Shown piece by piece: positions 30,852-64,000 of a stretch of 64,000 nt of DNA (its first letter is position 1; the number at the start of each line of letters is the position of its first letter). Source of the stretch: Primula veris (taxonomy: Eukaryota; Streptophyta; Magnoliopsida; Ericales; Primulaceae). The stretch covers positions 26,534,126 through 26,598,125 of the forward strand of contig OY821747.1 in assembly GCA_963682055.1 (NCBI GenBank). Reading direction: 5' to 3'. The notes below the pieces were generated by a model. It saw nothing but the letters and a program-made list of their open reading frames with translations, searched no databases and had not been told where the DNA came from. A program made the position numbers and the translations under genes.

Positions 30852-32023
30852 TGTTGAACTTAGAGTTCAATAATGATTTTGATTATAACTTTGATTATGT
30901 CTTTAATGATTTTACGATTTCGATGATATAATGCTTGTCTTTTCCAAAAGAAGTAAATGAAAATTTTAGCACGCCAGAAAGATAGGGCACAGAAAAACGA
31001 AGCCACAGGTTCAAGCGGAACCAGAATCGGAGCTAAAACGAAGGAGTTATGACCTTTCGAAGAATAGCGAGAAGACCGAGAAACTGCCAGAGAAAACGAT
31101 CGATCGTCTGTACAAAAACGATCGATCATTTTTGGTCCAAAATATTCCAGAGAGCACGTCGAAAAAACGACTGATCGTTTCTCAGAAAACGACCGATCGT
31201 TTTCTGAAAAACGACCGATCGACTGTAGAAAACGACCGATCGTTTTCTGCAGTTTTCGAAAACAACTTTTCAGCTTATTCTGGAAAGTTGCTTAAAACCT
31301 GTGAATAAAAGCCTCAACCACTGCCAACGGTCATATACTGAAAAACAGACTTTGGTGACTTTAAAAACCACCCAAAATCTCTTTAAAAAGTCACCAATTA
31401 TAATACCAATCAATCCTTAAACCTCTCTCATATACAAAAACCCAAAATCACCATTTTGGTGAAATACTTCGAAAAGAGAGAAATTGAAGATAAAGAGATA
31501 CAAGCTCCAACAAAGATCAAACATCATCAAAACCACATATTAGCTTATTTTAGAAGCAATCAAATTGTGAGTGTTGTTTTAATTTTTGACAAAATTGTAA
31601 AGAGCGTTTTATAAACTCATTTTTGTGAGCGAGTGATCGGGTAAAGGCTTTGTAAGCAAGTGAAGCTTAAAAGCTCTAGGTCTTTTCATTCGGGACACTC
31701 ATAAAGTGTGGGGGAGCTTAATCGGTTGATTAGCTCGATAGGATTGTAATATTCGGAAGAAGATTATTTTAGTGAAATACTCGGTAGTACCGAGGAGAGG
31801 ACGTAAGCCGTTTGCCGAACCTCTATAAATCTTGGTGTCATCTTCTTCCCTTAAACTTTTATTTTCTGCAAATATTTATTCTTGCTTGCTTGCGTTTAGT
31901 ACTTCTAGCAATTTATTAACTCTTGCATTAGTTGGGTGGTTAGTTGCACTTAAATCAAATTAGGCAAAAATCGCCTAAAATCTTATTCACCCCCCTCTAA
32001 GGTTTAGCCGCACCGGGCCAACA
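30852..32023 (+). mobile_element. 5' LTR of a Ty1/copia (Sirevirus-like) element
   Basis: 1172 bp beginning TGTTG and ending CAACA (perfect 5-bp inverted ends), two bases before a primer-binding site. It is inserted directly into the GT17 reading frame. It contains a cluster of palindromic ACGAnnGATCGT motifs (31096-31243). Confidence 0.85.
31096..31243 (+). repeat. Six palindromic ACGAnnGATCGT motifs in the LTR
   Basis: Copies at about 31096, 31118, 31167, 31189, 31211 and 31232. Each is a near-palindrome centred on GATCG within AAAACGACCGATCGTTTT. They fall within the upstream half of the LTR, so they are candidate enhancer or protein-binding repeats. Confidence 0.7.
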
Positions 32024-37628: not shown

Positions 37629-37764
37629 CAAGGAGGCATCAAGGTATAACGCTTTTTTTGTTCGTTGACTGTTGATTTAAATTCTTACGCCTTTTATTCC
37701 GCATAATTCTTATATTAATGTTAATTTATTATGTTCTCCAAATTGAATAGATCTAATTCTTCTA
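37629..37764 (+). repeat. Terminal redundancy, left copy
   Basis: Direct repeat of 44943-45079. The copies differ by a small indel in a T-run (near 37650) and one substitution. It ends 34 bases into ORF1. Confidence 0.9.
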
Positions 37765-38441
37765 GTAAGTATTCTAGGGGAAGCTATGCTTCCACTTCTA
37801 ATAACAATTCAATGAATAAGAGACAAGAAGAATGTCAATATAATGATATTCCTGAAATGACTAATTTTGAAGAACAATTAGCAAATTGGCACCTTTCTAA
37901 GGTTAAGCCCTCTGAAATATATTCTATTGGTATGTTTGATTTACGAATGGCTATGACCATTAAAACTATAGAACAAACTATCCCTGTCGAACGGGATATG
38001 GAAACTATTCAATTACTTCATAAAGAAGAATTACGTAGGTATTTTGATAAATACAAGTATGTCCATCTAGGTATGGTACAAGTAGCTGTGAAACCTCTTA
38101 CAGCTCAAGGCTTAAATACATCAGTCATTATTGCTTTACGCGACTGTCGTCATCTAGAATTTAAAGAATCCTTATTAGGTATTATTCAAACCAGTCTTTG
38201 TAATGGGCCAGTTTATTTCAACTGTTTTCCAAACTTCTCTGTTTCTTTAACAGATAAAAATATTTTAGACGTTCTTACTTTGAATGTCAAAACCCATGGT
38301 TATAAACTGAAAGAAGGAACTGAACCTTTAAATATCACTTATCGAGTTCATTACAAAGCTATGACTACGCTTAGTCATCGGGCTAAGACTTTTAATACAA
38401 AAGGCAAAACTGTTTTAATAGAGACAAATTTATTAAAATAA
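37731..38441 (+). pseudogene. Viral ORF1 segment 1: movement protein
   Basis: ATG at 37731 opens the polyprotein. Residues about 60-215 match the 30K-superfamily movement protein: the VAVKPLTAQGLNTSVIIALRD region with its conserved Asp, the GPVYFNCFPNFSVSL core and a final THGYKL block. It forms tubules or modifies plasmodesmata for cell-to-cell spread in related viruses. An in-frame TAA at 38439-38441 ends it; the same frame continues immediately after, so this is a single nonsense change. Confidence 0.8.
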
Positions 38442-39920
38442 GATGTCCAAACCCCTCAGACTATTAAATGGGAAGATATCGAACCTCCCGCAGAATGGAA
38501 TTTATTGTCGGCCAGCCCAGCCGAACCTGTAGAAAATAAAAATATTGAAGAAATTATTCAAACAAAAGAAGGACATGTTTTCGTTAAATTTGATAAAGGA
38601 AAACGACTAGCTTCTAGAAGTTCTTTTTCCGATTACGAAAGTTCTTTTAAACAGAGTCAATCTGCTAGGTTTTATACGCCAAACCCTTCTATAGCATCTT
38701 TCAAAACTTCGAATTTAGTTTTTGATGGTGTTTCCAATACCCAACAAAATTTTTCTCGTGTTATTTACCACGAAGAGAAAAATGATCATAATAATGAACC
38801 AGAAACTTTATCTGAGTTTGACAATATTTCTACTATTAATATGCTTTCTATACCTTTTACTTATAATAGACAAACATGTGTTCAGGATATGAACCAAGAA
38901 AAATATACGTCTTTTCGAAAATGGTTCTTCTCTACTTACACAAATGAAGAACAACAAACATATAAGACTTTATTTTATAAGCATATTGATGCTACTCAAC
39001 AATTAGTGTCTTTCCCCTTATGGTTTATTGACCGAGCTACTATAGAACATAGTCCTTTTCTAAATGTTTTAAAAAAATTTCACAGACATTGGACTACTGC
39101 CAAAGGAGAAAATATTTTTGTTGTTCATCCTCCTTGTGAACATTTAAAAGTGAAGGCTGGCGAGGCCATTATTGAGTCTGTAGCATTTTCGAAAGATGAA
39201 AAACAACTCAATTTAACCCTTCAAACTATTTGTTCACAACTTAGTCGTATAGAAGACAAGGGAACCATTATAATTCATAAGGAAACACCAGATGTGGCTA
39301 GTTCCTCTAGTTCGTCCCCTATACAGCATCCACCGGCTTTTGAACCTACTATATTAAAACCCAGTATTGATATTACTGTTTCTGATAATAATAATACTGA
39401 TATTATTACATTGCTAACTCAGCAATTAGAAAACCTGAATATTAGAGGAAAAAATATAGCAACTTTATCAGAAACTACTACTGATATAGAAAATATCAAT
39501 ATTTTTGAACAACAACTTTTAGCTATGGATAATACTCCAGAACAGGCTACCATTAATCAAAATGTTTTTGGGAAATCAACTGCTTTTGGACGCAAATCTG
39601 TCCCAACTGCTACAATGAAACATTATTATTCTAGACCGAGTCCACAAGATCTTCTTTATGAAGAAGAAGGTGGTAATATTTTTACGAGTTTTGCCTCTCG
39701 AACCATTTATGAATGGAATATTGATGGTCTGACAGAGTATCAGATTATGATTATGCTACATCGAATGACTATGTACTCTACCGTATGTCTTGGTGCTAAT
39801 AACACCGATTATCAAATTGCTGAATTTATCGTCGCAGGCTTTGCCGGCCAATTACGCGGTTGGTGGGATAATATTTTATCCCCAGATCACCAAAGGACCA
39901 TATTACAGGCCACAAAATAG
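38442..39920 (+). pseudogene. Viral ORF1 segment 2: linker and start of capsid region
   Basis: Same frame as the movement protein after the stop at 38439. It contains a Ser-rich linker, a block with FRKWFFSTYTNEEQQTYKTL and PLWFIDRATIEHSPFL, then the beginning of the capsid/Gag-like domain (YEWNIDGLTEYQI, LRGWWDNIL). It ends at a TAG at 39918-39920 because of a one-base frameshift near 39900-39920; the downstream segment continues in another frame. Confidence 0.7.
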
Positions 39921-41551
39921 TTAGAAAGCCTATTAAGAATGAACAAGGTATAGATATGTATACGGATACAGTCTTACCCAATGCAGTTTATACACTCCTC
40001 ACTGCTATTGTTCAGGCATTTATTGGTTCTAATCCTGTTGCTATAGAAAGAAACAAAGATTTATTAATTAATCTTAAATGTCCTACTTTAACCCATTTTA
40101 GGTGGTATAAGGATGTTTTCCTTACCAAAATTATGATGAGACCTGATGCAAATGCTGATTTTTGGAAAGAAAAATTTATTGCAGGTCTTCCTAATCTTTT
40201 TGCCCAAAAAGTCAAAGATAGGATTTTACGTAAAACAGGGCATACAACCATCCCTTACCATGAATTCACCTATGGTCAACTTATTAGTGAATGTGTCGGT
40301 GAAGGCTTATCCCTTTGCAATGACATAAAACTGAAAGCCCAATTGAAAAGTCAAAATTTGACTGGAAGAAAAGAAATAGGTACTTTTTGTGACCAATTTG
40401 GATTTGATCTTCAAATCCCCCAAAAATCTCATAGAGAAGGGTATTCTAAGAAGAAACATTTTTCAAAATCGAAAAGATTTTCAAAAAAATCTTCCAAACC
40501 ACCAAGAAGAGACAACCACCATATTGGTTCATCCCGACCTAGGACTTATAGACCCAGACCAAACCAAAATCCTTCTGCTTCTATTGTTTGCCGCAAATGT
40601 GGCAAAACAGGCCATTATGCCAACAAGTGTTGGACAAAAAAGAGATTAAATGAAATCTCTGATGAAGGTCTTAAGAAACAACTTATAGCTGTCATGTTAT
40701 ATTCTTCTGATGAAGAATCCGATACTAATATTATGGAAGTTTATAATAGTAGTAGTGAGTCTGAACATAATAGTTCATCCTCGTCCTCTTCCGATTGTGA
40801 TTGTAAGGAGAATAATTATAAAGCTATGCTTGACATGAATGGTTTAAGTCTTAATGTACTTACTTCCCAAGAACGGTCTATATTAGATCTGATTAATGAA
40901 ATTGATAATTCTGAGGTAAAGAAAAAACTAATTGAACATTATTTAGATGTTCTAACAAAAGATAAGAAAAAGGAAACTCCTTATGTTCCGCAGGAGGCTT
41001 ATTCTCTGAAACATGTTTTTCAAGGACTCCAATCATCTCCTTCTAAACAGTTTTCTTGTGAATATATTCATCAAGAGGTAAAAACTCTTAAAACAGATAT
41101 TAACATTCTAAAAAATAAAGCTATTTCGATTTCAGATTTACATAGCGAAATTCATATCTTGAAAGATGAAGTAAAATTTCTTAGAAATATTATTCAAACA
41201 GAACAGGATATTCCTTTTGATGAAGAAAAAGAAAGCTTTATTCCTAATAAGGACACTTTTTTGAATATTATTGACAAAATTACATATCAGAAATGGCATT
41301 CTCATGTCACTATAGTTATCAACAAAAAATTTACTTTTTCCGGTCCAGCTCTTATTGATAGTGGGGCTGATTTAAATTGTATTTGTGAAGGCTTAATCCC
41401 TACACATTATTATGATAAAACTACGCAGTCCTTAAATACTGCTGATGGGTCTCGTATGAAGATTCATTATAAACTTTCTAATGCTTATATTTGCAATTCT
41501 GGCATCTGCTTTCAAACAACTTTTGTGATGGTTAAAGGCCTTACCCAATAA
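39914..41551 (+). pseudogene. Viral ORF1 segment 3: capsid, zinc knuckle and aspartic protease
   Basis: The capsid core continues, followed by a basic region and a CCHC knuckle CRKCGKTGHYANKCW at 40589-40630. Next come a Ser/Glu/Asp-rich stretch, a coiled-coil segment, and the retroviral-type aspartic protease with catalytic triplet in LIDSGADLNC (Asp-Ser-Gly at 41357-41365). The frame ends at an in-frame TAA (41549-41551) a few residues before the ILGTP motif, which resumes in the same frame, so this is again a single nonsense change. Confidence 0.8.
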
Positions 41552-42487
41552 ATCATTTTGGGTACTCCATGCTTGAATTTAATTGAACCTTTTATGGTTA
41601 CTTCAAAAGGTATTATGTTCGAAACAAATGGTCAAAATATTACTTTTGAGTTTATTTCCAAACCACAAATGAGGGAAATTGATATGATCAAAGAAACTTT
41701 AATTTTTAAAGAAAATCAAATCAATTTTTTAAGCAAAGATTTAAAACTTATGAATATTTCTAAACAACTTATTTCGCAAAAAGATAAAATTAGTTTCCTT
41801 ACTAATTTGATGAAAAAAGAAATTTGTAGTGATATGCCCACTGCTTTTTGGGATAGGAAAAAACATATTGTTACTCTTCCCTATGTGGACGATTTTAAAG
41901 ATACTGATATTACAACTTTGGCTCGGCCTGCCCAAATGGGTCCCGACCTTATTGATTATTGTAAAGAAGAAATAAATTCTCTCTTAACTAAAAAACTTAT
42001 TCGCAAATCTTATTCCCCTTGGAGTTGTACTGCTTTTTATGTTTATAAAAATGCTGAAATAGAACGTGGGGCTCCGCGACTTGTTATTAATTATAAACCT
42101 TTAAATAAGGTTTTAAAATGGATTATGTACCCTATTCCCAATAAAAAGGATCTATTAACTCGGATCCAGTCTGCGAATATATTTTCCAAATTTGATTTAA
42201 AATCAGGCTATTGGCAAATCCAAATTGATGAAAAAGACAGATATAAAACTGCTTTTGTTGTTCCTATGGGACATTATGAATGGAATGTTATGCCATTTGG
42301 TTTGAAAAATGCTCCCTCTGAATTCCAGAATATTATGAATGATATTTTTTATCCTTATTCTTCATTTAGTATAGTTTATATTGATGATATCCTCATCTTT
42401 TCTGATAATCTCGACCAACATTTCAAACATATTAATATTTTTATAAAATTAATAAAAAATGCTGGCTTAGTAGTTTTCTGCCAGTAA
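41552..42487 (+). pseudogene. Viral ORF1 segment 4: reverse transcriptase
   Basis: Begins with the ILGTPCLNL end of the protease region, then a linker and the RT palm and fingers: KSYSPWSCTAFYV, the RLVINYKPLN block, FSKFDLKSGYWQI, MPFGLKNAPSEFQ, and the active site YIDDILIF (Asp-Asp at 42383-42388). It is interrupted by a one-base frameshift just before the stop at 42485-42487. Confidence 0.85.
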
Positions 42488-42728
42488 AATGTCTTTATTC
42501 CAGACGCATATTCGCTTTTTAGGTCAAGAAATAGATCAGGGAAAAATTATTCCTATTGATCGGGCCATTCAATTTGCAAACAAATTTCCTGATATTTTAC
42601 AGGAAAAAACCCAATTACAACGCTTTTTGGGAAGTCTCAATTATATTGCTGACTATTATAAAAATCTCGCTATTGATAGTTCTCCCTTATATGATAGGTT
42701 AAAAAAGAATCCACCTATGTGGGGGTGA
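42477..42728 (+). pseudogene. Viral ORF1 segment 5: RT thumb/connection
   Basis: A shifted frame picks up at the Ser-Ala-Ser-Lys-Met run and continues through HIRFLGQEID and LQRFLGSLNYI, typical of the RT C-terminus. It ends at a TGA (42726-42728) created by another frameshift around 42715-42728. Confidence 0.75.
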
Positions 42729-43209
42729 TATTCACACCAATGCCGTAAGACTAATTAAGTCTAAAGTCAAAAGTCTACCTTGTTTGGCTCTTATTTCCCC
42801 CACTAGTTTTAAAATTGTTAAAACAGATGCATCCGATATCGGATATGGTGGTATTTTAAAACAAAAATTTCCTTCAAAAAACAAAGAGATATTGTCTCGG
42901 TATACTTCTGGTAAATGGAATAGTGCACAACAGAACTATTCAACAATTAAGAAAGAAATTCTTTCAGTTGTAAATTGCATTTCTAAATTTCAAGATGATT
43001 TATTAAATCAAAAATTTCTTTTAAGAATTGATTGCAAAGCTGCAAAAGATGTCTTAGAAAAGGATGTTAAAAATTTGGCATCCAAACAAATATTTGCAAG
43101 ATGGCAATCTATTTTGTTTATTTTCGATTTCGATATCGAATATATTAAAGGAGAAAATAACTCTCTCCCTGATTTTTTGACCAGGGAATTCATTCTTGGC
43201 CCCACATGA
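42726..43209 (+). pseudogene. Viral ORF1 segment 6: RNase H
   Basis: Third frame of the polymerase region. It contains the RNase H acidic residues in KTDASDIGYGGIL, then NYSTIKKEILSVV, LLRIDCKAAKDVL and the closing YIKGENNSLPDFLTR. It terminates at a TGA (43207-43209) that overlaps the ORF2 start (ATGA), matching the expected natural end of ORF1. Confidence 0.85.
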
Positions 43210-44495
43210 GCCAATCTAGTCATGGCCGTGGTAGAAGAGGATATTCCTCTGCCCATGATCGACATGAATTCGATAAAAAGAGATATTCCTCTTCTCCATC
43301 TATTGCTGGCTCTAGTTCTTCTACGAGTTCTGCTATGCGTTCTAAAAAAGAGCCTGCTGATTATGAGGATTATTTATCCTCGGGAAAAACCCAAGAAAGC
43401 TTCCTTGAAGCCCTAAAAGAACCAGTCCTTCCTGGAATAAAAAAGGCTAAGGATGAGCTAGTTATTCTTCTCCACAATGGAGATGCGAGGTTATTTACCT
43501 CTCCCAATACATTGGCCAAAAGATATTTTGATTCTGAGGTTCATTTTCCTCTTATCGACAATAAAGATTTGAAATATTTTCAATCCATACTTATTGAAAC
43601 TGGTTCCGTGGTTTTTAACCACATGAATCAAAATAAACATACAGGGGATATTTCCTTTAGTAAAGCTTTTATTAAAAAAATCATCCCTATTACTGAATGG
43701 GGTCTCAATCCAAACAAGCCTATGCAGCTTAAATTTTCTCACCAAGATTTTAATTATTGGGATTATATGGCCGCTTGGCGTTTTGCTTTTTATTACCAAA
43801 ATCGGGCCGAAAAACACACTTGGTTTATACGGTTGGAACCAACATTATTAACTCAAGCAACGCCATATTGGTTTTATGATTGGTTTTCTTTTATTGGTCC
43901 CAATGAAGATATTCTTCTTCCAGATATTTTTTGTCTCTATGAAGACTATCTTTTACATAATCCAAAAAATCGGGGGGTTACTGTAATTAAAGGAAGTAAT
44001 TTACTTCGATTTCTTACGCAATTTGGCCTGCCTTGGATATGGCAATGGTCTTATGCAGTCAAACCAACTGAGCTTGGTCTTATGTTGTTGGTTCGACAAT
44101 CTTATTATAAATGGTGGACGAAGTTTGATTTTAAACTCGTGCTTATAAAAATTCAAGAGACTATTGAGTCTTTTAAAAAAATGGAACGGGAATATGCACC
44201 CGAAGCAAAAACTACAAAATTAGATTTGCCTTCTTTGACAGATCTCAAAAAACAATTCCCCTCTGCTTCTTCTATGGAATTGAAAGCAAAATTATTTGCT
44301 ATCGTACAGAGTCAATTGGACATAGATTTTACTGATTGTCTCGCCAATAATTCTTCATCCAATTCTTTAATGGAAGAAGACTCTGGTGCCGAAGAAGATC
44401 GTGATTTTGCCCAGAGTAACGAAGATATGGAAAATTATATGGATCATCTTATAGATGAACACGTGCCAAAGGACAAGGGAAAAGCAAAAGCTTGA
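43206..44495 (+). CDS. Viral ORF2, unknown function
   Basis: 429 codons without interruption, starting at an ATG overlapping the ORF1 stop by the ATGA arrangement, which suggests coupled or reinitiated translation. The N-terminus is basic and Ser-rich. The middle is rich in aromatic residues (FNYWDYMAAWRFAFYYQNRA, PYWFYDWFSFIG, WIWQWSYAV). The C-terminus is acidic (GAEEDRDFAQSNEDMENY) with a last basic tail. Florendovirus ORF2 proteins have no established role; no enzymatic motif is seen here. It is notable as the only unbroken viral frame. Confidence 0.75.
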   Translation: MSQSSHGRGRRGYSSAHDRHEFDKKRYSSSPSIAGSSSSTSSAMRSKKEPADYEDYLSSGKTQESFLEALKEPVLPGIKKAKDELVILLHNGDARLFTSPNTLAKRYFDSEVHFPLIDNKDLKYFQSILIETGSVVFNHMNQNKHTGDISFSKAFIKKIIPITEWGLNPNKPMQLKFSHQDFNYWDYMAAWRFAFYYQNRAEKHTWFIRLEPTLLTQATPYWFYDWFSFIGPNEDILLPDIFCLYEDYLLHNPKNRGVTVIKGSNLLRFLTQFGLPWIWQWSYAVKPTELGLMLLVRQSYYKWWTKFDFKLVLIKIQETIESFKKMEREYAPEAKTTKLDLPSLTDLKKQFPSASSMELKAKLFAIVQSQLDIDFTDCLANNSSSNSLMEEDSGAEEDRDFAQSNEDMENYMDHLIDEHVPKDKGKAKA

Positions 44496-48974: not shown

Positions 48975-50026
48975 CACACCAATGTAATATAAAAGTATCA
49001 TTGGTTAGGTTGAGTTAAATTTCTACCTGGATTTTGAATTAAATGATATCGCCAAGTGCGTAATGTGACGACTTTTTGCTTAAATAATAGGACTATTCTG
49101 GATACCTTCTCATTCTTGAAAACTTGATTGGAACACTACGATATACCATGCTAATTTGTAAAACAAATGATTATGAATTAAGCATTGGAAAACCGATTCA
49201 AAAGTTAAGTACCTACTATTGTGGTGAAGTATGTGATTAATTTTAAAGTTGATCATTCCAGCTATTTAATGTTGCAAAACACTGTAACCCAGCTTTACAC
49301 TTGAGTTGCTTATAGCTCAACTATCAATTTAAGTAGATACTAGTACTATATGAGACTTATTTTTAGTCTAATTTTGAACTTTAGCTGAAATTTCCAAGTA
49401 CACTCTAGTAAAGTTGATGTAAATAGGACAAAATTTATAAAATTATCTAGTAATTATTTTGTAGAAACGGAGACTTGTTAAATGGAACACCCTACAATGA
49501 AACATCCATTTGCATATCGGAAAGAATAGAGTAATATTTATTATCAATGTTATAAAAGGTTGTAAGCGGAAATGGGTCACATAGTGTCTAATCCCTCATA
49601 ATTGCACTTAATTCTGCATAATTTACTAGGTGTCTAGTCTTGTCTTTCAGAACACTGTTTATTACTAAATAGTCAACAAAAAACTCGACGAGTCACAAAC
49701 ATTTTACTAATTCCATAAATATTGACATATATTTTCATTTTAACTAAAAGGGTAAATATATCTATCAACTAATTTCATAGCCTCATTTCAAAATCCCACT
49801 AGGCCTATTTGGCTATTTATTCGAACCCGGGTTCAATTTGTAAAGTTAAGAAAATAGTAGACCCAAACACAATAACCAATTAATATTGAAATGAATACTT
49901 TTTTTATTAGAGGTTAAATCATAGCCTCGTTATATAATGCATATATATAGTATATATATATATATATAGTATATATATATATATATATAGTATATATATA
50001 TATATATATAGTATATATATATATAT
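48975..50026. other. Intergenic stretch ending in TA repeats
   Basis: 3' flank of the neprosin gene, no other gene seen. An interrupted (TA)nG microsatellite at about 49938-50026 is the insertion target of the copia element. Confidence 0.6.
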
Positions 50027-50237
50027 TGTTGTAAGATTATTGGACTCTTGGGCTTTTACTTAATGGGCCCAGATGGGCTTGTAACCCTAACCCTCTATCT
50101 ATATAAAGAGGGCTAGGGGTCTTGTATTTTATATACATTCATACATTCTGATTAATAAAGACTCTGTTGTTGTCTCTCTCTATATTCTATCTCTATATCT
50201 ATATACATATATATGTGAGCTAATATGTCACACAACA
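50027..50237 (+). repeat. 5' LTR, 211 bp
   Basis: Contains TATATAAAG (near 50099-50107), an AATAAA in GATTAATAAAGAC near 50152 and ends in CACACAACA. Matches the 3' LTR at every position I compared. Confidence 0.9.
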
Positions 50238-50250
50238 CGTTATCAGCACT
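50238..50250 (+). other. Probable primer-binding site
   Basis: CGTTATCAGCACT immediately after the LTR. It shares the TATCAG core with the usual initiator-Met site but is not a full match; this variant is common after plant copia LTRs. Confidence 0.5.
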
Positions 50251-51554
50251 GCTCTCGGAGATCAAAGTACGGATTCTAAATTCAAATAAACCTTGAGCTT
50301 TATCCGGATTTAATTGAAATATTGTTATATCGACATTCACCAAAATACCGTGTGAACGGTACATAATATTTTTTTAACTTGCAAAACTATATGTGTATAC
50401 CACCCGTGTTCTATAACAAACTCTTGTATGTATAATATATATAGCCTACCGGCCACGTACACCTGCATGTTTTAATTGCTAATTAAACAACTTGTCTATA
50501 GAACTAGTCTATATTGTATATAAGAAAGAATATGTATGATTGCATAATATGTTTAGTAATCTGCCACATGTATAAAACGTTTGCTATGAAATTCGCGTGT
50601 ATATATGTGATTGTTAATGACTTTGAAAAGTCAAACTAGGTTTACTGAACCCATGTAACCGAATATATCTTGTTTATGTTGAATGTTATAAATTCAATAT
50701 AGGGTAATATCATATATTAATTGGTACTATGAATTACAGATTATTAAATATGTACTGCACGTGTAATTTAGCTAGTAATAGTTGATGGTCATTTAAAAGA
50801 AAATTACATATGTAATTCATGTCTAATATGGTATGTAGTTACATAACATGTAATCAATGATTTAAAGATTACCATATATATAGAACTTACATGTATATTG
50901 TATAATTATAACGAAAATTTGCCCTCCCTGCATGTGATATGGTAAATTAGTAATTAAATATATTGCTTGCTTGCATGTTAGAACTACCATGTATAGAATT
51001 ACTTATATGGCAATAAACCGTAGATAATTGATTGATATCTTATTAGTATAATCAACATATCTTTTGATATTACCATAGATATAAATATACCATATGGCAG
51101 TTAATTGATTTGATTTGATTTGGTATGATATAATTTGTGTGATTGATAATCCTGAATTGATTTAGTTTATCACCAAATCTACTGCATGATTAGATAAATA
51201 TCATGAATATATTTTATACTGCCTTGTATATATGTGGTTATCTAGAAAAGATATACCTGTTATTTATTGCCATGAATGGTAGAATTGCGAAATCATATAT
51301 ATTCACATTTAAGTTGGAAAAATTATGAACCTTCCCTAAATAGGCTCACCTATTTGGATACGATGTCTAGGAAAGATATAGGCGGAAGTCGATATCCTAA
51401 TGAGGTCGGGTTTTAAGTGGCATTCGTGCCCTCCACCCTCACCGTCTTTCCTGGTCGTTTTTCAAGTAGAGCTACCGAAAGGGGTTGACTAAATAATAAT
51501 TTCCCCGAATGTGTTTATATAGTGATGTATGTTTCGCCGAATTGGTGTCTCTGT

Positions 51555-54500
51555 ATCGACCTGTCGTTCGATCAATGAGAACATATTCACATTAAAAGCA
51601 AAACTATTTTTCGAACCTGTCGTTTCGAAATAAAGTTTATGCTTGTGCAAACCATAAACATATAAACCAGTCGTTTTATATGAAAAATAATCCAGAACTC
51701 CCAACATATGTTGGATGCCATCTATGATGAGAAAATTCGTAAAACATACTTGCGAAATGACTATTTAAACATTGATTTTAATCTGTCACCACATGTTACT
51801 CACCCTGATGTGTGAAAATGTGATGTCCAAATTTTTTTTGGATGCCATCTTTGATGAGTAAAACACGAGTTTGTTGTTACCTTCACGATGAATGCTAAGG
51901 CGTTGATTTTATTCCGCCGCCACATTTGAGACGTGATGACGTCTATGGTGAACAAATGTCTGAAATTGACATATTTGAGCAATCCTTCACCAAAATACTA
52001 GCTTGGAAATTGTATTCCATAAGCAGTATCGTGAATTTATATTCACCATGTTCCTTTATCGCCCATTTGTTATTGGATAAGAAAATTACCCCGGTGAGTA
52101 GTTTTAATCCTATTGGGTCAATGGCGAATTGTTTGCCTGATATTAATGCTCTTCGTGTATATTTTTTTTCCACGAATCGAGAACCGTGACAAGTGTTATT
52201 TGTCTCGAACTGTCGCGATCCCGATGAATCGCCTAGCCAAGCGAGATTTTAGACAATCGTCAAAATCTAAAACCTGTGGCTCCAAGACAGTAATTGAAAG
52301 GAACAATATGGCCCGTTGTCACAAAGCAAGAGATAATGCTCAATGAGGCAACTCTATGCTATAAACACAAAGGTCATGCACGGTTACTCCTTAAATAGTT
52401 CAAAACTATTATAAAGATGAAAAACCCGATGCTAATGTGGTTAAAGATAACTGAAAGGAAACTCTTGAGACCCCCGGTTTTGTGGCTCAAATATGTTTGG
52501 TACCTTTCTTTATTGATTTTGATAAATCATTGAGCCATATTTTCGCTCATCTGGATTATGTTTTTCCATTTGGATTATTATTTTTCCATTTGTACATACT
52601 TTTGGATTATGGTTTGCCTGTTTATGAAATTTCTCGAAATAATTTAAAGTGTTTTGAGCAAATTCCTTTGATAAATGTGACCAAACTTTAAATTATGAAA
52701 TTTTAGGCAATACTTGTGGGATAGTTGATTTTTTTTGAAAATAGTGGGTAACAGTGTACCACATAACTTCACCAACTACTTGCCTAAAAGAGTACTCAGT
52801 GACAACGATTCTGGACCTGTCGTTCCAAATCGAAATTTTTGGTAAAGCCAAATTGATTTGTCAAATATGAGGCATTATACTCCTATAGGTCCTGTCGTAC
52901 CTTGTTGAGTTATAAAATATTCGAGAAAACCAGTGTTATCTGGTAATAGCTCATGAAAAAATTAAATTTTTTTTACATAGCCTCCATTCAATACGATCAA
53001 AAGCGTATTTTAGAGGAGTTGAAATGTCTTTCAAGTGGTTGCTACCACATTCTTTAAAGCATTTAAAGTTACCTTATCATTTCGCCTGTCGTCGAATGAT
53101 AAATGATTTAAATGCTAAGACATGATTGTCTATACTATCATTCGCCTGTCGTCGATTGATTAGAGTATTTTAATATTGTGGCATTGACCGGATGAGATAT
53201 TCCCGGGTCAAAAGACGATGCTTGATTTATAATCGCATCGCATTTGGATTCTCTCTGAGAATATATTTCGCGATTAATCCGAAATTCATGCCATTAATGC
53301 TCACTTTGAAAGACTAGTATGTGTAAAGATCACGAAATGAACTCGTAGAATTCTTGTAAAGAATTGAAGGAGTTATTGTGGACTTATCCAACCATAAGAC
53401 GGACCATAAATATAAATGGTTATGGTTGATGCATCGACAATTTGGTCACATTTTAATGTTGTCCACATAAATGCAGCACTTTCCAAACTTTTAGCCCTAT
53501 CATTAAGTTGATGGCTCATGATCCGGATTATCCTGAAAAGTCTAGTCGACTTGATAATACCGAAGAGTAAGAATCGAAATTTCGATTTGAATTACTTGAA
53601 TTTGGAAATTGAAATTGAACATCCTGTCGATTATGTTCAGACCCAAAATGGACTCACGGAAAGCTTGATGATGCGACTGCAAATGATTGCACGCATTTCT
53701 TGGTCTTGCGCACCAAGATTTATATTTCCGTATGGGGTTATGCTATTTTGCTGCATTGGTCCGTCATGAGGCCCATAGATACTCAAACACCATATGCGTA
53801 CCAGCTGGTTACTGGTTATGAGCCAGAAGTCTCATATTAACGCGTGTTTAGAGTGATTAATTAATATTTTGATTGAGCCGTTCTAGCGTTCAAAATATGG
53901 ACCTCTGAAGGGGACATAAGTCGATTATGAATCTCCTGCCTATCATTTGATAGAGTAACCTTGGCAAGCGATCTCTTTACCGCATGATATGCGAAAGTGA
54001 CATCGCTAAGACTGTTCTCCCCGTCGTTAGGGGGAGATTTGCACGTTACCGTTGATAAGGAACGACGTGAAGTAACGTGGCATAACCCACTCAGTCTTAG
54101 CTTGATCCCAAAACTGCACTTAGTGATAAGTAAGTGCATAGACTCCCTCAAGTCTAACTAAATGCCAGACGCATTTAATGACTTTATGAGATGTCACGAG
54201 ATCATTTATACCTGCTGCAAAATGCTTGCAAGGATAGACGTCCCTGTCGGACGCCGTGTTCCTGTCGTAACACGTTGCTTTGGCCGAACCCGCCAAGCAA
54301 AGGACGCTGTCGTCGGCCGTCAGTCTGTCGTCCTTCCTAAGATATGAGGAAGTTGACCGGTTCTTAATTCGTTCAGCCCCAGAGGTGGTGAACTGAAACT
54401 CGTTTGTTGCACGAGATTATAAAGGATCAAGGAGATGTGTGATTTCCTCCTCATCCTAAGAATCTCGAAATATCTGTCGATCATGATATCTTAGACGATA

Positions 54501-56332
54501 TTGAAGCGAAACGAGACTGTCATTGATTACTTGTTCATATATTCGGTGACGACTGATAATATGAACAAATTATGACAGAGAACCATGTACCGTTGCCTGA
54601 AGTCAACGTAGAATAGACTGTACTAATGGAAACTTGCAATCCAAGTAGACTCCTTAGCGAAAGTGTGTTCGGACCTGTAGTTCCAACACCACCAATGTTA
54701 AACGAGTTCGTTTATTTGGTTATTCGTAAGGAAAAGTGATGAGAATAATGAGATTGTCGAATGCTCGCCTAGTAGCGCAAGACTTCTCTCACACCTTGGA
54801 ATTGATTACGAGATGGTTGATTTCCTCGTAATGGACATTATAACAGTCCCCTACTTTACCAGTTTAGTAGTTTTCGAAAAACTGAGTATGCAGCCATGAA
54901 TGTGGTCACGGTTTTATCTCTATGGGGATTTAGACAAAGAGATATAGATGAAGGTCCCTGTGTGACTTCATGTGCTTAAATCAAGTAGTTTCTGACCACG
55001 GAACACGATCTCAATTGACTGAGACGTTCACTATATGGATTAATATAATCCGAGCGGATGTGGTATACCGCCTAAGTGAGTACTTGATTAGCTTGGGATA
55101 CTTGAACAAGTATTATGCCCTTGCGTGTTTTATTACGCGATCCATTTTTGGATTTGCCTTCGAGATGAAGGATCTTGGGAAGACACGGTAGTGACTCAAC
55201 CTGATGATTGAGTCCCGTAAAGATTGAATCTAAGTCCATGATTCAGACTACACCCAGAAGGTGTTATGACGTTTTAGTCATCATGACGCTAAGTCGTCAG
55301 ATTCTCCCATGATCGTTCGATCACTAGACATTGATATAGACCCAGTCCGTCCCTGATGAGACGATGAAGAGATATTGAACCATAATGTTCATATCTAAGT
55401 ACAATAAGCACATCATTGTACTTGGTCTAATGTGCTAGGACGAACATCTCGTCTGTTGTGAATGGTATAGCTCGACACAACATCGCGCTAACACGCTGCC
55501 ATCGAAATGGCACTAAAGACACATTCCCTTACCTTATGGTAATTTTGGAAGTGGGCTAGTTTATCCCATTTGCGTCATCGAGTGTACCTACCCCCTTCGG
55601 TACTCGAATTAACGCAACCCTTTTTCGGTTATACCGATGCCGGTTACTTATCAGACCCGCATAAGGGATATTCCTAACATGGTATGTCTTTACCATTAGG
55701 AATAAGGCGACATCTTGGAGGTCTTGGAATGACTCCAAGTGAATCACTCTGATCTATTCGTGCTCTATGAGACGACTAGAGAGTGTATATGGCTTCGAGC
55801 TAGTATTAGTCATATTTGAATTACATATGTTCTGTCTCACGATCCAGATAAAACACTTGTCATAGAAGACAACTTGTTGTTATTGATCAAGAGAGACATG
55901 ACTACATTATGCTATTTAGCATTTCTCGCCGAAATTAATCTTCACAAATGAAGTTTAAGAGCATCCAGTTGAATACTCGTTCTATTCCACGTTAGATTTT
56001 CTTGCATCCAGTCGTATGTAACTAAATGAGGCATCCAGTCGAATGCTCGTACTCTTTCTTGGAATATGAAATCTTTGCACCCAGTCGTGTGCAAGTGAGG
56101 GGGAGCATCCAGGTGAATGTTTATTGCACTAATTACTACTTAGTCGAAATCTTCGCACCCTGTCGTGTACAAGTGAGGGGGAGCATCCAGTCGCATGCTC
56201 GTGTACTCTTTTTGTCCTTAGACCAAGGTTTTTTCCCACTGGGTTTTCCTTGGCAAGGTTTTTAGCGAGACACGTTCCTATCATATCTCACTTAAGATTG
56301 CCGAAATTAGGGGGAGTATCCTGTTGTATACT
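51555..56332 (+). repeat. Family of ~18 hairpins with a CC(A/T)GTCG loop
   Basis: Short inverted repeats of 4-10 bp flank a nearly constant loop. Examples: 51609-51630 (TTTCGAA/TTCGAAA), 51659-51682 (CATATAAA/TTTATATG), 53074-53102 (TTATCATTTCG/CGAATGATAA), 53137-53160, 53617-53638 (GAACAT/ATGTTC), 54255-54274 (CGTGTT/AACACG), 54665-54689 (GTGTTCGGA/TCCAACAC), 56075-56094 (TTGCAC/GTGCAA), 56181-56200 (GAGCAT/ATGCTC). Others lie at 51555, 52812, 52887, 54239, 55959, 56002, 56028 and 56315. Stems differ in sequence while the loop is conserved. Confidence 0.75.
53608..55980 (+). pseudogene. Decayed copia pol (integrase, RT, RNase H remnants)
   Basis: Recognisable islands in order: integrase core tail (HPVDYVQTQNGLTESL at 53617-53665, then a Leu-Val-Thr-Gly-Tyr-Glu-Pro motif near 53808-53830), an integrase-RT linker (MPDAFND and ARIDVPVGRR, 54162-54260), RT (YRLSEYLISLGYLNKYYALA, 55064-55120) and RNase H (YTDAGYLSDPHKG, 55630-55668). 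All are separated by stops and shifts. In RT the sequence jumps from IFGFA to FEMKDLGKTR at about 55155-55165, deleting the catalytic Tyr-Val-Asp-Asp region. Order IN before RT identifies Ty1/copia. Confidence 0.75.
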
Positions 56333-56630
56333 TATTACCACTGTGTACTCTTTTGTCCTTCGACTAGAGATTTTTTCCCACTGGGTTTACTCTAGCAAGG
56401 TTTTGATGAGGCACCTGTTTTGTGGTTGATCCCTACTACTACCATTGTTGCACTCTTTTTCCTTCGATCAGAGATTTTCCCATTGGGTTTGCTCTGACAA
56501 GGTTTTGATGAGGCACACTGTTTTGTGGTTAGTTACTTACATGATATTTCGGCCTATATCATTCGGCTACACAGTTTCTCCTAGGTACCGGTTTTGTCCC
56601 ACACTGGGTTTTCCGGCCTTAAGGTTTTTA
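56210..56630 (+). repeat. Four copies of a CCCACTGGGTTT...CAAGGTTTT module
   Basis: The module TTTTCCCA(C/T)TGGGTTT followed by C(T/C)(T/A)(G/A)GCAAGGTTTT recurs near 56230, 56370, 56470 and 56605 just upstream of the polypurine tract. Similar modules are typical of the 3' untranslated region of plant copia elements. Confidence 0.65.
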
Positions 56631-56696
56631 TGTGTTTAGCACTGCGAATGAACTCGACTCAGATCGACTGCATGAAGACGAAGAATTCAAGACGTC

Positions 56697-56707
56697 CAAA
56701 GGGGGAG
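56697..56707 (+). other. Polypurine tract
   Basis: AAAGGGGGAG directly before the 3' LTR; the plus-strand DNA primer site. Confidence 0.8.
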
Positions 56708-56918
56708 TGTTGTAAGATTATTGGACTCTTGGGCTTTTACTTAATGGGCCCAGATGGGCTTGTAACCCTAACCCTCTATCTATATAAAGAGGGCTAGGGG
56801 TCTTGTATTTTATATACATTCATACATTCTGATTAATAAAGACTCTGTTGTTGTCTCTCTCTATATTCTATCTCTATATCTATATACATATATATGTGAG
56901 CTAATATGTCACACAACA
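56708..56918 (+). repeat. 3' LTR, 211 bp
   Basis: Same length and sequence as the 5' LTR, followed by TATATATAG of the target microsatellite. Confidence 0.9.
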
Positions 56919-58953
56919 TATATATAGTATATATATATAGAGAGAAAATAGATACAATATGGGTTCAAATGTATACTCTTATTTTTCTCATTAGTTAGTG
57001 TAATTAATTTTACTAATTATTATTATTATATTTGATTTGCTTCTAGCTTGATTTAGCATAATTAGAACATGTTTAATGGGCGTCGGTTGCGTTGGGCGCA
57101 TCTCTGTGCGGTGGGATAGCCACCTTTATCGTTGGTAGGGTGCGGCTGTTGTTGCCGCATATTCTTCTCCTCCCTCTTATTCTTTCGCTTCTCTCTCTCT
57201 CATTTATATGTATATCGGCTCCGTGTGTTTAATTACAATGACTGGTCTCTGTATTAATTACCTGTAGTTTAAATATATTTTAAAAAATAATATGACCGTT
57301 AATAGTTAATCCGATGGTTTATGTAGTTTCGAATTCTTACAATTTGGTCCCTATAAAGGTAATAAATGGTAAAATTACTAATTTATTTGGTCCCTACACT
57401 TTTAAACTATACAAATAGGCCATAAATAACGGATAGTTATAATTTCTTTAGTCCAAAATGTTTAAAAAGTTGAAATCTGACTCTTGTCTCTCACTATATA
57501 AACTCATACTCATATTCATTAAAATCACACCATTCTCTCACTTTTACTACCTTTTATATACCATTAAACACTTATTTTCTTGATCAATTTTGGTGCTGAT
57601 AATTTCAATTAGCCAATAAATCCCGAGAATGAAACGTATTACGTGTCTTCCCCCAATATAATTTCTGCCAATATCCATATGACGACTCACCTCAATATTC
57701 AACGCAACTTTTCCAACCTCAGTGTTCTCGACCTTCAAAAGACAAAATAAGAAAAAAAAAATCAAACTCAAACTAAAACTGATACGGCTGATCGGAAAGT
57801 GTGAAACGAATACGAAGATGAGCGACTTTGCATAATTTGGTGTAATATATCAAGCTATAGGGTTGTTGGCAATGAACAACCAAAAGCGTAATATTGGATG
57901 AAAATTCATGCCGATTACCACCACGAGTTACCGGTTGGTTGGGTTTCAAACCGTTCATCGGAAACATTACGCCACCACTTTATTAATCATGAGAAAAGGA
58001 GGCAAAAAAGCGGACAAGTCTATTACACTTCGAGGGAGGTTTTATTTCAGTTCGGACCATGTTTTTCATTCGAGTAGGTAGTGGCCATGTCTATTACACG
58101 ATCGTGTCCTTTATTTTCATCTTTTTCACGAATGTTTTAATTATTATTTTTTAAAATTTTAAGCTTATAAATGTCTTACTATTAATGGAAAATCTATAAG
58201 TGAGGATTCGTAAATATAATCTTTTCTGGAACTAGAAATGTCAAAACGGAGAATAACTAAAATGGGAACATGAAACAGCAACATGACAAACCAAAAAAAT
58301 TATAAAATATACACATCAAAATTACAGTAAACAGGAATCATAAACCGAGAAATAAATTATGCGATATGCAGTTTTTCAAAAGGGTGATGAGTTTATGAAC
58401 GACTATGTACTTGCAACTTCCAGACCTATTTATAGAGGATTCATTAATAAAAATTCTACTTTCTCCCTTATGAAAAGATAGCATTCGGATTAATTTAAGA
58501 TCAAGAGAATCAGTACAAAACCTCAATCCTCTTCTAATCCAAAATTAATACGATCTACAAGTATTCTCCAAAATGATAGAAAGAGAATGATAAGAGTTCA
58601 AAACCAAAAATATTAAAAAAAAATATGGGAGAGGAAAGATATTCGAGGAATAAGAGTAATTCCCCAATCTAAAATAGGAGGTCTGTGAGAAAGAAACTTC
58701 TCCCCAGATACTAATATCGCCTTTCCATGAGGCATCAATTACATCTTAATATATTCAACAAGAAGTCATGGCACCAAACAAAGCGGAAAAGATAAAAGTT
58801 ATTGAAATACACTACACAATAAGGCGGCCTTTAGAAATCCACATTCCAAACGAGCCGAAGAGAAATGCACTTTTACCAAGGTATTTTTTATCTGGAGACA
58901 GTTTTCCAGAAACGACCTAAACATAGCCGACAGTTTCTAACTTTTCTGACTTA
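56919..58953. other. Intergenic stretch
   Basis: No gene recognised. A short GC-rich island at 57072-57160 stands out from AT-rich surroundings. The part after about 58600 is probably the 3' flank of the ankyrin copy B. Confidence 0.45.
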
Positions 58954-60648: not shown

Positions 60649-63600
60649 TTAGCCTTCGAAACCATCATCTTCGCCCATTAGATCATCCTCATCGATGCTA
60701 TCCCCATCATCACTACTAACTACATCAAGAATGTCCTCATCATTATCTCTAATAATAGTAGATTCTTTCTCGCGAATATCAATTCTATTACCATCATTGC
60801 CACCATAACTCAATTGGTATATCGGATTAGTTTCATCATAAGGATTAGATCTTTCAATGCCATCGTCAATATCATTGAGATTCTTGGTTCGCATCCTTTT
60901 CCTTTTCGGATGACCTACTCAACAAAAAAACAAATTCGGAAATAATCAAAGGAAAATACCTTTACAGATAAGAAAATTATAACTTACTCATTTATTTAGG
61001 GAGCGTGACTATTACCGTTAATGAAATTTGAAAATAAGAAAATTATAACTTACTTGAACTTGGAAGTTGACTACTTTTCTTTTTAAAAAATGACGCGATA
61101 GGCTCGTGAAGTGAAGAAGCAGGCTCGCGCGAAGATGTCGGCTCACTAGAAGATATTGGGTCACGAATAGGTGATGACTCACGAGGAAGTGTCGACGCAC
61201 GAGGTGAAGGCTCACGAACAGATTTGTGCACACAAATAGGAATCGAGTCTCTAGTTAAAGAACTTTCATATGTGTTGGGTGGCACATTTCTTACTGCGTC
61301 AATGTTAAGACCAGATATTTGATTATTTAGATCTTCGTTAAACCAATCAAATTGGGTGGGAAGAGTTGCTTCCTCTTTCTCGGCTATCCACTCGTCATCA
61401 GATCCAATTTCGTCCGTGAGTATAGGATCAGCCATTGAATTATTTCTCTTGATATTTCGATCTCTTAAAGCACGGTTATATTTCACATACACCAAAGCAT
61501 GTAGTCTCTCGACCTCGAGTCTATTTCTTTTCTTCGTGTGGATCTGAAGAAAACATATTTATGAATGTTACATCATCTCCCTTTTTATAAACAGTGTATA
61601 TCCCTGCTGGGAAATTATGCAATTTATGAATGTTACATCATCTCCCTTTTTAATCATATCCAAATCATCTTTAGATCTAGATTTTGTTCAACCAGAATAT
61701 GGTACAAACTGTATATCTCAGCTCAGCCAATTCAAAATTCTGTTAATGAGCATATAGAACTAGAAGTAACCTTGACAACCATTTTGCAATTATTGCCAAT
61801 TTCAATACAAGACAAATGCATTTAAATTTTCTCCAAAAATATAAACTCAGATTTGTATAATGCAGAGAGATTTGCAGAGTAGGGGACCAGGGGTGTTCAA
61901 AGAATACTGTAGCTTAAAGTACCTCAAAATTGGTGGTGTTCATGATTGAGAGTTGCTTCACTCTTACCTATTCATGTTTACTCATCACTCTCATGGGCAA
62001 AAAAAAGTAATTGGGACCTATATTATTCAAATCCCATCACTTTTTTGCTCATCATAATATGTGCAAAACAATTGATAGTAACTATCTCACTAACTAAAAA
62101 GCAATGTATAATTACTATAAATAGAATTGGTCCACCATATTAGATCTTAAGATGTGATCTACTTTTCTAATTTCTACTACTGTCATCTTATTTCTTTGGT
62201 AGCATCTTTATAGAGTCGGAGATTTCATAATCCAGTCCAAGCCTCTTATAATTACAATTATTTCGACTACTGTCAAAGCTTCGTGCTATGGAAGTACGAC
62301 TTTGCTTTCTGAAACAGAGTCAGTTTTGCTAAAGACGACTTTGTTTTTTTGAAGTACGAGGCTTGGGCTGGGTTAAGAAATCTTGGATAGTATAAAAACT
62401 AGTTGCAGACATCTAGTTGCAAAATAATCCTTCTACTTCTGAAATTTCAAGAGTCAGTACAATATACAGAAACATGAGTTGTCACTGTTGCTAAAGGCAA
62501 ACATTGTGAACTGAAGGCTATCTAAATGTGGGACATATTCTATATAAGTCAAGAAAGACAGAACTACAACCATTATCAAGTCATGAATTTGGTAATGCTT
62601 TTCATGAGCTGCTTCTGTTTTCTTATTCTCTAATGAGAATTGAGAAGCAGCTAAATGGTATTGGTAAGTCAAAATATAGCCCATTCTCATCTGGGGTGTT
62701 TTCTATATCAAATTTGAGACTGCTCACTTGCTCCTAAAGCATGTTTTGCATTCCTATTTATTACAAAATATTTTCATAAATACCAGTCACTGTTTATGAA
62801 GACACAGTAACTTACGGATTCAAAAGTGCTCCAATTGCGTTCACAACCCGATGCACTACATGTGAGCGAAAGAACTTGGATCGCAAACTTCATCAACTCC
62901 GGTGTTTCGGTTCCATATTTTTCCCACCAAATAACTGAAATAAAATTGTTTTTGTTAACACAGTAACTTATAAATATGCTAAGTGTAAAAAAGTGAAACT
63001 AATGTAATGTTCAAGCTAATTTAATGTTGAAGCTAAAAGTAAAACTGACCTGGTGATCGTTTTTTCCTGGTTTTCATGGCCATGTCACATCCGAACCTGC
63101 CCATTTTACGGTCAAACTTGTCTAGTTGTACCTCAGCTTTGATACGATCACTTCCAACTATCATTCTATCCATACACTTTTCCAAACCAAGCGTTATCAC
63201 CTCATTATTTATACAATTGTCTTCATAATGGAATTGCGGATTCAAATAATAACCAGCAGCATGCAATGGTTGATGAAGTTGCGGTATCCATCTTTTGTCA
63301 AATAATTTCCAAATAGGTCCATATTTCCTTAGATTATTTCCGAGATTAGAAGCAATTTTTCTTCTTGCAATATCCATCAACTCAAAAAGATATCCCATGG
63401 CGGGTCTAACCTCAGAATCGACCTCCCTGAGAACACAAACAATTGGCACCACACTTTTCACGCAATATGCAACATGATTCCAAAAGTTTCCATCATGTAA
63501 TATCCACTTTTTTACCTCAATCCCATCACGGTGGTTCAAAAACTCACTCTTTTGCCAATCTTGTGATGAAAACATACTGATAAGAGCTAGTTTTTGCTTC

Positions 63601-64000
63601 AATATGCTTTGAAGAGTAAGAAAACATGTCGCAAACCTAGTAACAGCCGGACGAATAATTTCTGAATTTTGAGTGTATTTTCTCATTAAAGAAAGAACGG
63701 TGCAATGTGCATAAAGAAACTTGACTATGAACTTCGCCGTTTCGATAGTTCTCTGAAATATTTTTAACTTACAAATATCCTCTAAAAGCAAGTCAATACA
63801 ATGTGCAGCACATGGAGTCCACCACAACTTTTTTTTATAAGTCATTAAATCTGCACCTGCTTTTTTATAATTTGAAGCACTATCCGTGATAATTTGTATC
63901 ACGTTCTCTTCTCCTATTTCATCAATGACATCACAGAAATATTTTTCCAACAATTTTGAATTTTTAATGGATGCCGATGAATCAATCGACTTAAGGTACC
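60649..64000 (-). CDS. hAT-family transposase, multi-exon, 5' end outside the window
   Basis: Proposed minus-strand exons: beyond 64000 to 63050, 62816-62934, 61054-61543, 60649-60914. The first shows the DDE/RNase-H-like core with DUF659-type sequence (QIITDSASNYKKAGADLM, then WWTPCAAHCIDLLLEDI, and PAVTRFATCFLTLQSIL). The second gives the hAT dimerisation motif (LTCSASGCERNWSTFE), joining in frame to IHTKKRNRLEVERLHALVYV in the third. The last two exons are Ser/Pro- and Asp-rich, ending DDLMGEDDGFEG. Borders read CCAG|GTCAGT, TTTCAG|TTATTT, AATCC|GTAAGT, CTTCAG|ATCCAC, TCAA|GTAAGT and GTAG|GTCATC. No stop or shift is seen, so the enzyme may be functional. The 1.27-kb intron (61544-62815) is long and may hold another insertion. 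Confidence 0.8.

Follow-up and report, generated by a model that had tools for sequence, protein, structure and literature searches.

In this study, we examined a 64,000-nt stretch of the 436.5-Mb genome of Primula veris (the window) and a retroelement within it whose interior carries a series of short hairpins with a nearly constant loop. The element lies on the plus strand at 50027-56918, between two long terminal repeats (LTRs). TATAT flanks it on both sides, which is weak evidence for a target duplication because the flank is an AT-repeat. No open gag-pol was found in the element: the longest of 26 stop-free frames in the region 49500-57500 (both strands) has 101 amino acids, and a Pfam search with 10 of these 26 frames gave no match above the cutoff. 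Over pol, the element aligns at ~74 to 75% identity with two coding relatives, E2 (the reverse of L003-L004) and L016, and is therefore a decayed copia; judged from its sequence, it is a non-autonomous Ty1/copia LTR retrotransposon with decayed gag-pol. In E2, gag and pol are spread over several long frames, and L016 has a 1093-amino-acid pol frame with gag_pre-integrase, integrase (rve), SH3_retrovirus, and RVT_2 domains. The order rve, SH3_retrovirus, RVT_2 places integrase before reverse transcriptase, as tested on this relative and not on the frames of the window copy. A further element, L020, shares 95% identity with the window element across ~5 kb and likewise has no long frames; its end, in L027, adds 2 further hairpins. 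The comparative argument rests on these four elements.

The two LTRs agree at 100% within the window element, at 97% over 201 bases within E2, and at 99.5% over 204 bases within L020. With a 2001-base query of the non-coding type, the best 40 of 2751 genome candidates were the window copy and 39 others, all at 99%, one of these aligned over 1999 bases and the rest over 2001. With a 301-base query from the E2 leader, the best 40 of 1663 candidates were E2 and 39 copies at 98 to 99%. Both the E2 type and the non-coding type are abundant, with many young copies. The gag of E2 contains a Retrotran_gag_2-like region and a CCHC zinc knuckle, both slightly below the Pfam cutoffs, and those gag relatives that carry a species name are all from flowering plants, among them Rubus argutus (72%) and Beta vulgaris (39%).

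The hairpins of the window element begin at 51555 and end at 56332, exactly as given in the original prediction, which had drawn attention to them. The features are as follows, with hairpin loops in square brackets.

50027..50237, plus strand: 5' LTR with TG...CA ends, same sequence as the 3' LTR
51555..51572, plus strand: hairpin ATCGA[CCTGTCGT]TCGAT in the leader, common to the coding relative E2
51609..51630, plus strand: hairpin TTTCGAA[CCTGTCGT]TTCGAAA in the leader, common to E2
51659..51682, plus strand: perfect hairpin CATATAAA[CCAGTCGT]TTTATATG in the leader; E2-type copies have the loop CCCGTTGT or CCAGTTGT
51800..51815, plus strand: hairpin TCAC[CCTGATGT]GTGA, in the window element and L020, absent from E2
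52087..52100, plus strand: marginal hairpin of 3 bp with the loop CCCGGTGA
52215..52232, plus strand: hairpin GCGAT[CCCGATGA]ATCGC, in the window element and L020, absent from E2
52812..52827, plus strand: hairpin TGGA[CCTGTCGT]TCCA; GGG/CCC in the coding relatives, a compensatory closing pair
52887..52902, plus strand: hairpin AGGT[CCTGTCGT]ACCT, stem kept in both coding relatives
53074..53102, plus strand: hairpin around CCTGTCGT with one bulged base; perfect with 11 bp in L020, a gap in E2 and L016
53138..53159, plus strand: hairpin TCATTCG[CCTGTCGT]CGATTGA with one mismatch; same stem with the loop GCGGGCGC in the coding relatives, closing pair lost in L020
53817..53836, plus strand: hairpin TATGAG[CCAGAAGT]CTCATA
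54255..54274, plus strand: perfect hairpin CGTGTT[CCTGTCGT]AACACG; E2 (CGTGTT/AACACG) and L016 (CATGTT/AACATG) covary, with 7-base loops
54591..54608, plus strand: hairpin CGTTG[CCTGAAGT]CAACG; loop without the motif in the coding relatives, one pair lost in L020
54665..54689, plus strand: hairpin GTGTT-c-GGA[CCTGTAGT]TCC-AACAC with one bulge; inside GPVVP or GPVAP codons in the coding relatives
55193..55214, plus strand: hairpin GACTCAA[CCTGATGA]TTGAGTC; GACTCGG/TCGAGTC in L020, compensatory
55348..55363, plus strand: hairpin CGTC[CCTGATGA]GACG; same 4-bp stem with the loop CTAAGGAG or CAAAGGAG in the coding relatives
56005..56018, plus strand: hairpin of 3 bp and an outer G.U with the loop CCAGTCGT
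56031..56046, plus strand: hairpin GCAT[CCAGTCGA]ATGC
56075..56094, plus strand: hairpin TTGCAC[CCAGTCGT]GTGCAA in the 3' untranslated region (UTR), common to the coding relatives
56106..56119, plus strand: hairpin CAT[CCAGGTGA]ATG in the 3' UTR, after AGGGGGAG
56153..56172, plus strand: weak copy around CCTGTCGT, mismatched stem with 2 bp adjoining the loop
56181..56200, plus strand: hairpin GAGCAT[CCAGTCGC]ATGCTC in the 3' UTR
56315..56332, plus strand: hairpin AGTAT[CCTGTTGT]ATACT in the 3' UTR; same stem in the coding relatives
56708..56918, plus strand: 3' LTR, equal to the 5' LTR in 211/211 bases

All four long hairpins that had been singled out at the outset are present, two of them perfect (51659-51682 and 54255-54274) and two with one bulged base (53074-53102 and 54665-54689).

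The string AGGGGGAG, which immediately precedes the 3' LTR, is found five times in the element (starts at 54029, 56098, 56176, 56309, and 56700), and three copies in the 3' UTR lead straight into a CCNGNNGN hairpin. The part of the 3' UTR from 56201 to 56530 consists of ~100-base repeat units containing TTTTCCCACTGGGTTT and CAAGGTTTTGATGAGGCA.

The exact motif CCWGTCG occurs 15 times in the element and 18 times in the window, all on the plus strand and none on the minus strand. Fewer than one copy in the element had been expected by chance, and 2000 dinucleotide shuffles indeed gave a mean of 0.35 (maximum, 3) and, for copies with a stem of at least 4 bp, of 0.002 (maximum, 1). Read with an 8-base loop, 12 of the 15 copies reach 3 Watson-Crick pairs or more, 10 reach 4, and 5 reach 6; over all element positions, the background rates are 2.8%, 1.1%, and 0.17%, respectively. 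The other three copies, at 53623, 54243, and 56159, have stems that stay below 3 bp in the 8-base frame. Those at 53623 and 54243 may be ordinary, because their pairing is around a loop of 10 or 7 bases instead and the relatives have coding sequence at the aligned positions.

The true motif is also wider than CCWGTCG. Between 51501 and 56707, the pattern CCWGNNG has 30 sites, 20 with a stem of at least 3 bp and 16 with at least 4; in the shuffled-control check that had been proposed with the original prediction, 2000 shuffles gave a mean of 0.029 for the latter and never more than 1. A stem of 3 bp is lacking at all 4 such sites of the antisense strand and at all 6 of the reversed sequence, and on the plus strand of the window outside 49000-57000, 0 of 47 reach this length. 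When 256 loop frames with an equal number of fixed letters were compared, CC[AT]G..G scored 16 and the runner-up 3. The still wider pattern CCNGNNG has 36 sites in 51501-56330, of which 22 have a stem of at least 3 bp and 17 of at least 4, at a spacing of 27 to 678 bases. The motif is therefore described as C-C-N-G-N-N-G-N in an 8-base loop whose stems are unrelated to one another, and the commonest loops of this C1-C2-N-G4-N-N-G7-N pattern are CCUGUCGU or CCAGUCGU. A check that left the loop free (sense 8-base-loop hairpins with a perfect stem of at least 5 bp, excluding loops whose ends can pair and stems made up of A/T only) returned CCNGNNG in 31 of 51 rows from the four elements (37 distinct hairpins overall, as orthologues recur) versus 1 of 388 in the remaining DNA examined on both strands.

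In the DNA examined, the hairpins are nearly absent outside the lineage. In a 200.6-kb set, made up of 200 kb that flank the window and a 600-base stretch that does not match the element, both strands together contain 290 CCWGNNG sites, and all 31 with a stem of at least 4 bp fall in the three relatives E2, L016, and L020, which thus lie near the window. In 288 kb (both strands), with lineage elements and leader copies excluded, 0 of 323 CCWGNNG sites have a stem of at least 4 bp and 8 one of at least 3; for CCNGNNG, 3 of 536 have at least 4. One such outside CCNGNNG hairpin lies in the window at ~38382 on the minus strand (CTTAG[CCCGATGA]). Within the 288 kb examined, all CCWGNNG hairpins with a stem of at least 4 bp belong to this lineage. 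A motif general in this genome is ruled out as far as these 288 kb show. The pattern AGGGGGAGNNNCCNGNNGNNNNCT has 3495 places in the genome, and its reversed control has 0. The places listed, the first ones on contig C1, have the stem GAGCAT/ATGCT or GAGTAT/ATACT, and all but three rows pair fully; because the loop letters are fixed in the pattern, this result speaks for stem covariation and abundance and not for loop constraint. Viral contigs gave 0 pattern matches and no relative of the L016 pol. Among 4227 Rfam covariance models, 0 reached the gathering threshold in the window and 0 an E value of ≤1 in 51500-56700. By title or abstract start, none of the literature matches listed describes such hairpins in copia elements; subscription journals were mostly outside the scope of this search.

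The hairpins are also found in the coding relatives. E2 has four in the ~170 bases before the gag ATG and more in gag, pol, and the 3' UTR. Five further E2-type leaders out of 39 were read: the four hairpins of E2 recur in four of them, on stems of 6 to 8 bp, and three hairpins are present in the fifth. Within coding sequence, all three codon phases are used, with phase 0 being the commonest (phases 0/1/2 at stems of at least 3 bp: 5/2/2 in E2 and 3/1/1 in L016). An expectation for the coding relatives was computed from protein sequence and codon usage. CCNGNNG sites number 27 versus 20.2 expected in E2 and 15 versus 12.8 in L016, and those with a stem of at least 4 bp number 7 versus 0.40 and 4 versus 0.17, i.e., ~17-fold and ~23-fold more (Poisson p ~2e-7 and ~3e-5, which are not independent because E2 and L016 are 92% alike where aligned). 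Since the number of sites is near the protein expectation and stemmed sites are far above it, the excess lies in the stems and not in the codons. Stems kept as codons without covariation, around a loop that is just a common codon pair, had been named beforehand as a refuting outcome, and against it stand this 17- to 23-fold excess and the covariation of the stems.

Alignment with the relatives confirmed the compensatory stem differences that had been noted in the window sequence. At 55200, L020 has GACTCGG/TCGAGTC versus GACTCAA/TTGAGTC in the window element; at 52816, the coding relatives have GGG/CCC versus TGGA/TCCA; and at 54261, E2 has CGTGTT/AACACG versus CATGTT/AACATG in L016. At two further sites, the stem adjoining the loop is unchanged and the loop is not: the coding relatives have GCGGGCGC and the window element CCTGTCGT at 53145, and CTAAGGAG (CAAAGGAG in L016) is matched by CCTGATGA at 55352. 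Here, 4 and 7 of the 8 loop bases changed, in different ways, and the E2 versions encode protein (IIRRAPIDES and FRPKEDDEEI). If the coding state is ancestral, as we infer, both loops gained the motif. In ungapped, motif-free windows of E2, such a gain occurred in 3 of 77 with a stem of at least 3 bp versus 9 of 4449 with less (p 0.0009; p 0.014 with one near-motif case dropped). Between the window element and L020, the 20 of 23 listed hairpins that align differ at 4/160 loop and 5/186 stem positions, with 223/5033 overall. Strand specificity, occurrence in the coding relatives, compensatory stems, and two loop gains on unchanged stems together bear out the view that the hairpins are selected and not a product of ordinary decay.

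Since the loop is constant and the stem sequence free, the sites fit a protein that reads the loop on any double-stranded stem. As the best explanation, which we hold with about even confidence, we propose a recognition hairpin that recurs along the RNA and to which the zinc-knuckle Gag of the lineage most likely binds, so that the sites would be dispersed packaging signals in a non-autonomous family. The RNA of this Ty1/copia lineage would carry a repeated hairpin with a variable stem and the 8-base loop C1-C2-N-G4-N-N-G7-N. One trans-acting protein would read the loop, and the stem would need only be double-stranded. The likeliest reader would be the lineage's own Gag, which contains a CCHC zinc knuckle and would act when RNA is selected and particles are assembled. 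The clade of the window element has amplified and has lost its reading frames and is therefore presumably copied in trans; it may have gained more hairpins in its dead coding region, up to ~20. We infer that the hairpins form in RNA and are bound, that Gag is the binder and packaging the step, and that the coding relatives represent the ancestral state. Among the options originally offered, packaging is the most likely. On inspection, it seems unlikely that the loops pair with each other to bring about dimerisation, because CCTGTCGT and CCAGTCGT are not self-complementary; the rarer loop CCAGTCGA, however, contains TCGA.

More tentatively, the lineage could use dispersed, loop-coded packaging signals in the manner of some RNA viruses, and a non-coding, parasitic family could compete for the Gag of its helper through additional hairpins evolved in its dead gag-pol, at least twice by loop conversion on an existing stem. 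If true, the element would preserve a natural record of selection acting on packaging in trans, the additional hairpins would have made the non-coding clade more competitive for a shared Gag, and dispersed packaging signals would extend from RNA viruses to LTR retrotransposons. The findings bear on the way in which plant LTR elements pick out their own RNA and on the success of gene-less elements. Both questions become directly testable because the motif can be recognized in sequence, recurs at ~20 sites in each RNA and at thousands of places in the genome, and is shared by a coding relative within that genome.

Several results weigh against Gag-bound packaging signals. Across the four elements (51500-56330 in the case of the window element), perfect hairpins with any loop number 32, 31, 32, and 26 versus 7.5, 7.3, 8.8, and 6.7 expected from 30 shuffles per element, a count that is strand-blind by nature. 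This surplus of ~4-fold, alike in coding and non-coding copies, is left unaccounted for by Gag docking. A milder one, of up to 2.7-fold and likewise not explained by such docking, exists elsewhere in the window (26/15.9 observed/expected at 0-10 kb, 41/15.3 at 30-40 kb, and 27/13.8 at 40-50 kb). Local folding with G.U allowed gave a mean z of -1.80 for the sense and -2.42 for the antisense strand of the window element (controls, -0.16 and -0.24), and in the relatives the antisense strand is again at least as low. From E2 to the window element, any-loop stems kept pairing in 23 of 36 double changes versus 42% at random positions (p 0.007), with 16/28, 19/30, 20/34, and 17/28 in four other, overlapping comparisons. 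Single stem changes to G.T versus A.C are 25:25, 26:14, 29:23, 24:24, and 22:17 in five overlapping comparisons, so that support for selection of hairpins in general on the sense RNA is weak. The inverted repeats seem to have a second cause as well, one that is strand-symmetric.

Predicted structures and the history of single sites also speak in part against Gag docking. Minimum-energy folds contain all three window leader hairpins and three of the four of E2; open 8-base loops are drawn for these three of the window and for E2 7814 and E2 7870. The third leader hairpin of E2 is folded otherwise, and the 3' UTR fold draws 2 of 7 sites (56187 and, partly, 56081). In L020, the closing pair at 53145 and a stem pair at 54596 have been lost, and 9 of the 12 motif gains lie where E2 lacks a stem of 3 bp. 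Motif retention, in a weak test, was 11/15 with stems versus 7/20 without (p ~0.04). The constraint seen between the window element and L020, with C1, C2, G4, and G7 changed in 0/80 (p ~0.03) and loops plus stems in 9/346 (p ~0.06), is weak evidence on its own.

A host protein would fit the data nearly as well as Gag does. In this possible though somewhat unlikely case, a host RNA-binding protein or nuclease would read the hairpins, and the element would profit from host recognition. Candidates would be an RNase III-like enzyme that recognizes a WGNN tetraloop with C2-G7 as its closing pair, a protein that binds double-stranded RNA, or a factor for export or against silencing. AGNN-type tetraloops are read by yeast Rnt1p. 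In nearly all copies, C at loop position 2 could pair with G at position 7, which would leave [A/U/C]GNN; the sequence allows a WGNN tetraloop with the C2-G7 pair and mismatched C1/W8, two hairpins are drawn so in the folds (E2 7967 and window 56187), and sites lie along the whole RNA, beyond the leader. A host site might, however, also be expected in host transcripts or other elements, whereas 31 of 31 hairpins with a stem of at least 4 bp in the 200.6 kb belong to one lineage and 0 of 323 sites outside its elements have one, although 288 kb is a small sample. It is rather improbable that the hairpins, as RNA or single-stranded cDNA, serve another step of the element cycle, such as reverse transcription pausing, strand transfer, or translation control. 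The three 3' UTR copies that follow the string otherwise found immediately before the 3' LTR and the E2 leader hairpins at the start of gag would suit such a role; the sites also lie deep in coding sequence at irregular spacing (27-678 bases), and therefore no single strand-transfer point fits.

Chance, codon bias, and a simple mutational origin are unlikely sources of the motif. Template switching or hairpin-templated repair that makes inverted repeats around a preferred loop, in line with the hairpin-seeding process suggested at the outset, would agree with the ~4-fold excess of any-loop perfect hairpins in all four elements and with the hairpin at 53074-53102, an insertion relative to E2 and L016. 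We nevertheless regard it as very improbable: the stemmed loop pattern is on one strand only, and at two sites the stem pre-existed and stayed unchanged while 4 and 7 of 8 loop bases changed differently. That CCTGTC is a frequent Pro-Val codon pair with accidental stems is even less credible, to the point of being negligible. Many sites of the relatives do encode Pro-Val or Pro-Asp in phase 0, the commonest phase among stemmed sites too, and CCNGNNG numbers are near the protein expectation in E2 and L016; set against this, stems of at least 4 bp exceed expectation ~17-fold and ~23-fold, and the hairpins occupy all phases, the UTRs, and the non-coding clade. For the hairpin set, an origin by chance or coding is refuted by the stem excess, and it possibly applies to 53623 and 54243; chance origin is ruled out by the shuffles.

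Dispersed viral packaging signals have a common loop motif on variable stems. For single-stranded RNA viruses, one report describes multiple dispersed packaging signals as several stem-loops through one genomic RNA (PMC6281560). At the level of sequence, the element resembles these in having several putative stem-loops along its RNA, with a common loop motif and variable stems. It differs in that the host of the signals is an LTR retrotransposon, coat or Gag binding is putative, and the number of sites seems raised in a non-coding relative. Leader packaging signals usually lie before gag. In Ty3, the nucleocapsid domain is reported to be required for packaging, with a critical zinc finger (PMC4974528). 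Like retroviral, Ty1, and Ty3 leader signals, the lineage has a hairpin cluster before gag, a gag with one CCHC knuckle, and G in the loops; unlike them, the same loop recurs over ~5 kb, beyond the leader. As in large retrotransposon derivatives (LARDs), the LTRs are nearly identical and the internal region is non-coding yet conserved among many copies, but the interior of the element is a recognizable decayed gag-pol with a repeated loop motif. The likeness to Rnt1p substrates lies in the possible C2-G7 pair that leaves WGNN; in contrast to them, the hairpins are in a plant retroelement, C1 and mostly W8 are constant outside the tetraloop, and cleavage is hypothetical.

Other features of the window include a row of long open frames on the plus strand at 37725-44492, whose first residues resemble an endogenous pararetrovirus, and a long open frame on the minus strand at 63036-63998, whose first residues resemble part of a hAT-type transposase. 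A tandem array with several copies of a ~103-base unit lies at 29239-30042, and a tandem repeat of the palindromic unit AAAACGACCGATCGTTTTC with the loop GACCGATC is found at 31163-31249.

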